Source: Bremia lactucae (taxonomy: Eukaryota > Oomycota > Peronosporomycetes > Peronosporales > Peronosporaceae). From it: a DNA stretch of 64,000 bases. Of this stretch, positions 35,694 through 37,095 are shown one piece after another. Location: NCBI RefSeq assembly GCF_004359215.1, contig NC_090615.1:3282318-3346317 (forward strand), in the 5' to 3' direction. How positions within the stretch are numbered: the stretch's first letter is position 1; every line of letters begins with the position of its first letter. The translations under genes and the position numbers were made by a program. The notes under the pieces were generated by a model. It was not told where the DNA came from. It worked only from the letters and a program-made list of their open reading frames with translations, and searched no databases.

Positions 35694-37095
35694 ATGCCAC
35701 CGAAAAGGGGCCACGTTGGTCGGTCGTCTACGAAGACGCCCACTCAACCTTGCACTAAGCGCACGCGCCGCTTTAACACGCCGGCCGCGTCTAATGCCTT
35801 AGTCGGAACGCCGACAGCCACTGCGACTGTCGCGTTAACGAGGCTTAAGGATCCATCCCACTTTAACAGTAAGGATGTTGATCCGTCGCTCATTGTCGAC
35901 TACAATGAGTCGACACCGTAGCCGTCACCTCATAGTAGTGATGCGGACAACGAGCTCATGAGGAAGGATTATGGCGCATTATGGCCCATCCAAACTTTTC
36001 TCATGGCTCACAACATGGAGAAATCAACATTTACAAATGCTGTCTCGTCGTATGCGCTGGATAGCGCAGCGACGGTTAATGAGAGCGCTGCCCATAAAGG
36101 CGCAGCCGCTTCTTCGTTGGGTATAACCACAACGCCTTATGCTCAGACCATAATATATAATGGTTCTGACATAGAGGATTCGAAGCCTAAAGCTCCGCCG
36201 ACGACACGTGAACGTGCTCAGTCGGTGTCACAAGCCAGTCGTTTAAAACGTGGCTATGTGACGGGTGGCATTCCAAATATACCCCTCCATCTAAATCCCT
36301 CGTTTAAACGGGCCAAGAGCGTCGCTCCTAGAGCGCGCTCTTGTAGACGCACATGATTATTATGGCGTCTTTCAATCATGGAGGCCCAGGGAAAATCGCT
36401 TAGGCGTATTTTTCCGATCCCGGTCGTGTTGCGTTCAAATGAAACGCCCGGCCAATACGAGGCGGTATTCCTGCGCCGTATTCATCCGCATTCCGATGCG
36501 ATGAAACAGCGGTCGCAGCGAATTATTTTCGCTCGCTTGCGTGTGAAAGAAATCATGGGCGGTACTGTACCCTCTGTTTCTTCTCACAATGCTACTTCTG
36601 CTAGTCCATTTGAGTCTAGCAAAGTGGCCTCAGCTGGTGCTCCTTTTCATAGGCAGCCACGAAGCCGGGCACATTAATACGTAGGGTATCGATCGGTTCC
36701 CAAGATTCAAAACTCTTCGGGTAACCTTTCCATTGGACGAGGATCTGATACCCTTGCCTCACGGAGCGGTGGGCAAGCAACCTTCCAACAAGGAAGCGTT
36801 GATTCCCACCCGCATCCACCAGTGCAGGTGGCGCCCTATAGGAGTGGCGATGTCGCCCATCTACTCGCGGCTGCCTTACCTTCGTCTGTTCAGTCGCATG
36901 CGTTAAACGCTGCTGAACGACGTATTGCGGATCTCGAGAGTCAAGTCTCACGACTGGCCTCGGATCTCCTTGATGTCCGAGCGAAGGCTCGTCAGGGTTA
37001 TGAACGCTTGAAGACTCGCTTGGACCTTTTCGAACGGATAATGCTGAGGGATCCGCGTTACTCGCGTGATGTCCCTCGCTCTCCAAGTCCTGTTC
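35694..37095 (+). pseudogene. Antisense ORF (aORF) of element B2, best-preserved copy
   Basis: It starts MPPKRGHVGRSSTKTPTQPC, 134 bp inside the 3' LTR. One reading frame runs from 35694 past the copia junction with only three stops (35919 TAG, 36354 TGA, 36675 TAA); about 22 would be expected by chance in 467 codons. The product is unrecognised. It has a basic Thr/Pro-rich start, then DVDPSLIVDYNEST, a Ser/Ala-rich stretch, IPVVLRSNET at 36417-36446, QRIIFARLRVKEIMGG, and a coiled coil from about 36900 (AAERRIADLESQVSRLASDL..RLKTRLDLFER). A short internal stretch near 36250-36360 may be shifted relative to B1. The last third is antisense to the chromodomain. It may be driven from the 3' LTR. 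Confidence 0.65.

Follow-up and report, generated by a model that had tools for sequence, protein, structure and literature searches.

Antisense reading frames in the window

The 64,000-nucleotide stretch of the Bremia lactucae genome analyzed here (the window; contig NC_090615.1, G000:C6:3282318-3346317 of a 115.9-Mb assembly) contains gypsy retrotransposons, which are reported to make up 58.6% of B. lactucae contig sequence (PMC6570648). Seven of its gypsy elements, belonging to families A (A1 and A2), B (B1–B4), and C, carry a long open reading frame (ORF) antisense to gag-pol, between pol and the 3′ long terminal repeat (LTR). Judging from its sequence, this antisense ORF (aORF) is very probably a protein-coding third gene of these chromodomain-bearing elements. 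Six-frame translation and tblastn with the aORF proteins of relatives recovered the frame in all seven, every copy being decayed:

9149..10409, + strand: aORF of B1, decayed (tblastn)
35694..37127, + strand: aORF of B2, decayed, 3 stops (tblastn)
57552..58793, + strand: aORF of B3, decayed (tblastn)
44443..45944, − strand: aORF of B4, decayed (tblastn)
6683..8051, − strand: aORF of A1, decayed (tblastn and six-frame translation; start extrapolated 4 codons from a match at residue 5)
55001..56139, − strand: aORF of A2, decayed (tblastn; start extrapolated 1 codon from residue 2)
61066..62243, + strand: aORF of C, decayed (weak tblastn, 27–33% identity; residues 144–545 of the relative P0023 matched in pieces, with family-wide matches as well)

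An earlier note on this DNA had named these seven elements, and tblastn finds the frame in each of them, weakly in C; the result covers those seven, no search having been made for elements that lack an aORF. The same note had singled out a frame in B2 with 3 stops, far fewer than chance would give. The count is exact (one TGA, one TAG, and one TAA), and shuffling the bases of open copies gives 19.2 (B) and 21.4 (A) stops in frame on average, with a minimum of 7 over 2000 shuffles. By tblastn, the B2 aORF is 78% identical to that of an open B copy, L071, over L071 residues 1–463. The first two pieces of the B3 aORF share 47–48% identity with P0007, a relative from another sequence set, and 33–56% with L071. 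A protein block that had been pointed out in diverged copies, LIVDYN[EK]STPLPSP, is kept in B-type relatives.

Open copies and conserved relatives

Candidates from DNA searches numbered 1999 for B, 1563 for A, and 1740 for C; 40 were scored in each family, so copy numbers given here are lower bounds. We fetched 40 B loci (one being window B2), 30 A loci (one being window A1), and 10 C loci, to which we added L071 (B), L082–L084 (C), L085 and L087 (A), and L086 (the pol end of an A copy). L071 holds a complete B aORF of 493 codons and L085 an open A aORF of 461 codons; L045 provides another open A frame, and L084 has 312 open C codons. Over codons 1–309 of L071, the aORF frame contains no stop, compared with 15, 25, 15, 16, and 16 in the other five frames, and all three sense-strand frames carry stops in the part of the aORF that lies outside pol. 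This pol-free part is without stops in 15 of the 37 B copies that align over 250 codons or more and in 3 of 29 A copies, as counted in the reference frame with frameshifts left uncounted.

Protein relatives were counted at E ≤ 0.01. At least 11 were found for an A/B profile and at least 8 for an A copy, among the 8000 candidates scored for each, and 44 for a C copy, among 509 candidates. Full-length relatives, which come from other sequence sets, share 39–64% identity with the aORF proteins. Those from Peronospora effusa are of B type (P0008, P0010, and P0012) and C type (P0028), those from P. matthiolae of C type, and those from Hyaloperonospora arabidopsidis of C type (P0015) and A type (P0064); the rest derive from contigs of approximately 0.7–4 kb. 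P0003, P0007, and P0008 (480–488 amino acids) begin with the B-frame start MP[PL]KRG and end in a tail rich in S, R, and P, while P0057 and P0059–P0061 (417–451 amino acids) cover 92–96% of the A length. The A frames of L085 and L045 run beyond the end point of the latter four relatives and of copy L087. Together, the open copies and relatives show an open, conserved coding frame of about 420–550 codons that has counterparts in the three named downy mildews.

The A and B aORF proteins are, by sequence comparison, homologous: hhalign assigns their pol-free parts a probability of 94.6% over 68 columns, and blastp aligns them at 25% identity over 279 positions (E 1.6e-4), extending into the overlap with pol. 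We also observed that proteins deposited as "Uncharacterized" (P. matthiolae) or "Core-binding domain" (H. arabidopsidis), namely P0015 and P0023–P0048, match this retrotransposon antisense gene. Since such relatives are annotated as unnamed or uncharacterized proteins, some may be miscounted as host genes.

Purifying selection on the aORF frame in B and C pairs

Ratios of nonsynonymous to synonymous substitution (dN/dS) were computed in the aORF frame, on the part outside pol unless stated; ranges in parentheses are 95% bootstrap intervals. L071 gave 0.43 (0.31–0.60) against window B3, 0.55 (0.36–0.84) against window B1, with 0.61 under another alignment, and 0.54 (0.37–0.81) against window B4. 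For C, the first 240 codons of L084 and L082, both open copies, gave 0.26 (0.15–0.45). As a control, pol outside the overlap yielded 0.27 (0.15–0.48) and 0.59 (0.36–0.97). Four other B copies ranged from 0.48 to 0.57 against B3 and from 0.59 to 0.84 against B1 and B4, and the differences between L071 and B3 fall 65/61/105 on first, second, and third codon positions. High-frequency variants in the pol-free part of B, although small in number (49 variants), have a nonsynonymous-to-synonymous ratio of 1.53 versus 2.43 expected, that is, fewer amino-acid changes. These data show purifying selection on the aORF frame outside pol in diverged B and C pairs. The check that the earlier note had put forward, dN/dS on the aORF strand, was borne out by the B pairs (0.43–0.61) and the C pair, and failed to reveal constraint in A pairs, in older C copies, and in the overlap with pol, for which values are given in the Discussion.

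Position relative to pol and the LTRs

LTR pairs were identified for four of the seven elements, all with borders at the level of BLAST matches; BLAST found none for B2, B3, or C:

8202..8689, + strand: 3′ LTR of A1 (5′ LTR at 980-1454)
56253..56727, + strand: 3′ LTR of A2 (5′ LTR at 49669-50123)
8704..9008, − strand: 3′ LTR of B1 (other LTR at 16928-17233)
46101..46653, + strand: 3′ LTR of B4 (5′ LTR at 38602-39133)

The aORF had been thought to start inside the 3′ LTR. The four pairs instead place its start approximately 115–160 bp interior to the LTR. Its other end, described earlier as lying opposite the integrase tail, can be specified further: it lies opposite the linker between integrase (INT) and chromodomain and opposite the chromodomain itself.

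By tblastn, 79 of the 83 loci that were fetched have their pol tail on the strand opposite the aORF (36 of 40 in B, all 30 in A, and all 13 in C), the B and C pol queries coming from members of the sets tested. No pol-tail match was found in 4 of the 40 B loci; the search covered little downstream sequence in three of these and did cover it in one. All three families have a Chromo match (PF00385) above cut-off on the sense strand, and the integrases of B and C contain a GPY/F-like SH3 domain of Tf2-1 type (SH3_Tf2-1, PF24626). In B, locus L038 has its aORF start at position 1195 and the end of its pol frame at 2123, and the aORF end lies near 2694 in sister loci that differ slightly from it in length; from these coordinates, some 309 aORF codons lie outside pol and some 185 lie opposite the chromodomain and its preceding linker. 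The corresponding values in A are approximately 282 codons outside pol and 160–177 opposite it. In both families the aORF overlaps the 3′ end of pol by approximately 0.5 kb, and coordinate arithmetic indicates that first codon positions in one gene are opposite first codon positions in the other.

The pol tail of B2 illustrates this arrangement:

36619..37488, − strand: gypsy pol tail of B2, INT-chromodomain linker and chromodomain (PF00385, E 1.4e-8; domain scan), overlapping the aORF

The frame of this tail at 37150-37799 appears to run from copia-like sequence (RVT_2, 37542-37799, − strand) into the gypsy linker and chromodomain, and this interval is likely a gypsy/copia junction. Repeats were also noted in the window. 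The pol region of B1 has a head-to-tail duplication of approximately 1.14 kb, 94% identical, at 12511-14782, with a reverse transcriptase domain inside it. A 580-bp tandem pair (93%) at 7-1167 extends into the 5′ LTR of A1. An exact 351-nt direct repeat occupies 33355-33705 and 34617-34967, a spacing of 1262 bp, and is apparently much younger than the decayed elements around it.

A putative promoter upstream of the aORF

The oomycete initiator (INR) has been defined as YCAYTYY (PMC3599244). A match to this pattern lies upstream of the B2 aORF:

35656..35662, + strand: INR-like TCACTCT, 38 bp upstream of the B2 ATG at 35694 and antisense to pol; part of a putative own promoter (pattern match)

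An INR in antisense orientation occurs at −38 in L071, L038, L004, and the window elements B2 and B4, and B1 has TCATTCT at −41. Among B loci with a recognizable start (32, after 8 of 40 were dropped), 28 have an INR within 80 bp upstream. Of the 30 A loci, 28 have a match within 90 bp of the L045-derived start; in L045 and the window elements A1 and A2 its position is −68 to −70. A 16-nt block that was also searched for was not found. The earlier note had raised the possibility of an antisense LTR promoter, which a start interior to the LTR does not support; the sole promoter-like sign is the INR match between LTR and ATG. An INR upstream of the ATG, combined with that start, favors a putative own promoter just inside the LTR over an LTR promoter.

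Predicted features of the aORF proteins

Pfam scans of 17 aORF proteins (sets of 1, 6, and 10, at E up to 1, 5, and 1) returned no family above cut-off, with coiled-coil-type and other families below it. AlphaFold models, built from 13 sequences for A and 22 for C, share a predicted layout of disordered N terminus, more confident core, disordered linker, and long C-terminal helix. The core spans approximately residues 135–240 in A, where it is mixed, and 160–330 in C, where it is mostly helical; the C-terminal helix spans 358–421 in A, at a predicted local distance difference test (pLDDT) score of about 95, and 424–514 in C, at about 92. To score heptads, we compared only the best 28-residue stretch of each protein with 100 shuffles of that stretch. 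For 10 of the 16 proteins (9 of 10 from A and B, 1 of 6 from C), no more than one shuffle scored as high. Models and heptads point to a C-terminal coiled coil, less clearly in C. Most of the relatives examined carry basic patterns resembling nuclear localization signals (NLSs). In A the pattern is bipartite (6 of 7 relatives) and situated in the overlap with pol, in B it is KRT[RH]R (6 of 6 relatives), and in C it is a basic cluster, found in 21 of the 23 proteins that are 370 amino acids or longer.

Comparison with known antisense genes

In place, the aORF resembles aORF-3R of the plant Retand/Tat elements (Grande gene23, RIRE2, and Retand), which is likewise antisense to gag-pol between pol and the 3′ LTR, as the LTR pairs place it in four of our seven elements; the analogy with plant Tat-lineage antisense ORFs drawn in the earlier note is right, as far as these are described in PMC11963269 and PMC7264820. 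According to the same sources, Retand elements do not belong to the chromoviruses, and TRP28 is found in 97% of their clusters. The elements described here differ in having a chromodomain and an aORF that overlaps pol, and TRP28 (Transposase_28, PF04195) found no match in the 17 aORF proteins under the same sequence scans. Because they lack a TRP28 match and are carried by an element with a chromodomain, the aORFs do not belong to the Retand kind. Both the SH3_Tf2-1 domain in the integrases of B and C and the C-terminal chromodomain of all three families are traits of chromovirus type. An own promoter and a nuclear protein have been reported for Grande gene23 (PMC7264820; PMC11963269).

Outside plants, Boty of Botrytis and Sclerotinia is a fungal element with an antisense ORF between pol and the 3′ LTR, a likeness that we draw from its description in PMC7264820. 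HBZ of human T-cell leukemia virus type 1 (HTLV-1), like other retroviral antisense proteins, is encoded on the antisense strand near the 3′ LTR, as here (PMC3736048; PMC3185765). HBZ is a basic leucine zipper (bZIP) factor transcribed from a start in the 3′ LTR, whereas the aORF starts interior to the LTR, and no bZIP family is among the Pfam matches of the 17 aORF proteins. The oomycete Ty3/Gypsy element Chronos has a chromodomain after the integrase, as here, and is defined by an added RNase H (PMC5348765). Only about 60 codons separate RNase H (read by eye) from the integrase frame in L086, so this one A copy has no room for a second RNase H at that position. The word "antisense" is absent from the main text of the Chronos paper, and we found no description of such an antisense gene in oomycetes in the open-licence literature that was searched.

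Discussion

The suggestion of the earlier note that these elements encode an extra protein is supported by copies in which the frame is open, by purifying selection on it in B and C pairs, and by its conservation in relatives from three named downy mildews. A coding antisense accessory gene whose product acts as a nuclear regulator is the best explanation of the whole, and we hold it to be somewhat more probable than not; the nuclear regulatory role taken on its own is an even call. An antisense promoter of the gene's own, just interior to the 3′ LTR, would drive expression of the protein, which would enter the nucleus and oligomerize through its coiled coil. There it may help, as an accessory factor, to regulate transcription of the element itself or nuclear RNA or DNA, as has been proposed for the antisense ORFs of plant Grande/Retand elements and in the manner of HBZ.

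A number of observations weigh against parts of this explanation. Closely related copies vary mostly neutrally, as is expected of dead copies. A pairs carry no codon-position signal (χ2 0.1–2.1, ratios 0.58–0.80), and no clear constraint on either gene is visible in the overlap with pol, where the aORF gives 0.77–0.99. Eleven older C copies compared with L075 are near neutral (0.69–1.24 in the aORF frame), the +2 frame being lower in 9 of the 11, and short blastn pieces from L084 against L075, window C, and L083 give 1.06–1.30. Protein-guided C values of 0.19–0.31 (one more is undefined) rest on saturated dS and on alignments that favor conserved residues. Ratios in the mirror frame (−1) resemble those of the aORF frame, at 0.49 for L071/B3 and below the aORF in some pairs, which is expected if third positions coincide; in L071 the mirror frame is interrupted by 16 stops. 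Stops of the same kinds and numbers are shared in the aORF by sets of copies with identical scores (12 of A type and 28 of C type; for example, C1:9281870-9282550 and C1:4309220-4309816). These copies are presumably young and suggest that defective copies were amplified recently, so elements that lack an intact aORF seem to amplify, perhaps with help in trans; in L086, the sole member of the A group with its pol end read, pol is broken too. B3 in the window has no INR, and INR matches are short, shuffled sequence yielding 0.18–0.39 per 150 nt. The antisense position of the relatives in other species is presumed. Mean pLDDT is 61.8 for the A model and 59.9 for C, heptad scoring was negative for P0059 and weak for five of six C proteins, and the NLS-like matches are short and come from patterns, not from a trained predictor.

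Could the frame be a by-product of pol, a shadow kept open by the codon usage of integrase and chromodomain? The 160–185 or so aORF codons opposite pol, where the two frames are indistinguishable, would fit, and in that overlapping tail this account may yet be correct. Over the pol-free part it is contradicted by the 309 (B) and 282 (A) codons outside pol, open, under selection in B, and conserved in relatives, and by the stops in all three sense-strand frames there; as an account of the aORF we regard it as very improbable. Hardly better placed is the proposal that the antisense RNA is the selected product, controlling the element through double-stranded or small interfering RNA, with the open frame incidental. 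Gypsy elements of P. infestans are reported to give sense and antisense small RNAs (PMC3522703), and a plant review raises the same option (PMC7264820), but an RNA function does not predict a stop-free frame of about 490 codons, a codon-position bias, or amino-acid conservation across sequence sets, and we think it improbable.

In place of a nuclear regulator, a coding gene might also specify a second gag-like or an envelope-like product that serves in structure or packaging. The coiled coil, the charged disordered parts, and the unnamed core fold are compatible with such a protein, and the S/R-rich tail of the B proteins could bind element RNA. Yet the Pfam scans of the 17 proteins gave no match to a gag or envelope family, the NLS-like motifs recur, and antisense placement would part the message from the packaged genomic RNA; we judge a structural role unlikely, at perhaps one chance in a handful. 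That the C aORF was acquired independently at the same place, and is not the same gene as in A and B, has close to even chances. Profile similarity of C was not detected to either B or A (hhalign 3.0% and 0.4%), its predicted core is all-helical where that of A is mixed, and its phase relative to pol appears different in L082, by arithmetic on a pol frame that is decayed. Against this, the pol genes of A, B, and C are clearly related (42–44% in the C-terminal part of INT), the aORFs agree in place, strand, length range, and domain order, and A and B already share just 25% identity, so C may simply be more diverged. We propose only tentatively, and at somewhat less than even chances, a single ancient antisense gene that the A, B, and C lineages of downy-mildew chromodomain gypsy elements inherited from their shared ancestor. 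It would encode a fast-evolving nuclear coiled-coil regulator, would be dual-coding with the chromodomain region of pol, and would have an origin independent of the plant Tat antisense genes, so that antisense regulators would have evolved convergently at one and the same place in unrelated LTR elements.

Most of the antisense accessory genes of LTR elements described in the sources consulted belong to retroviruses or to plant elements of Tat type. An aORF under selection in chromodomain gypsy elements of the downy-mildew type suggests that the junction of pol and the 3′ LTR is a place where such genes repeatedly arise or persist. Because the aORF overlaps the chromodomain, dual coding, if true, would tie target-site choice to regulation in these elements.
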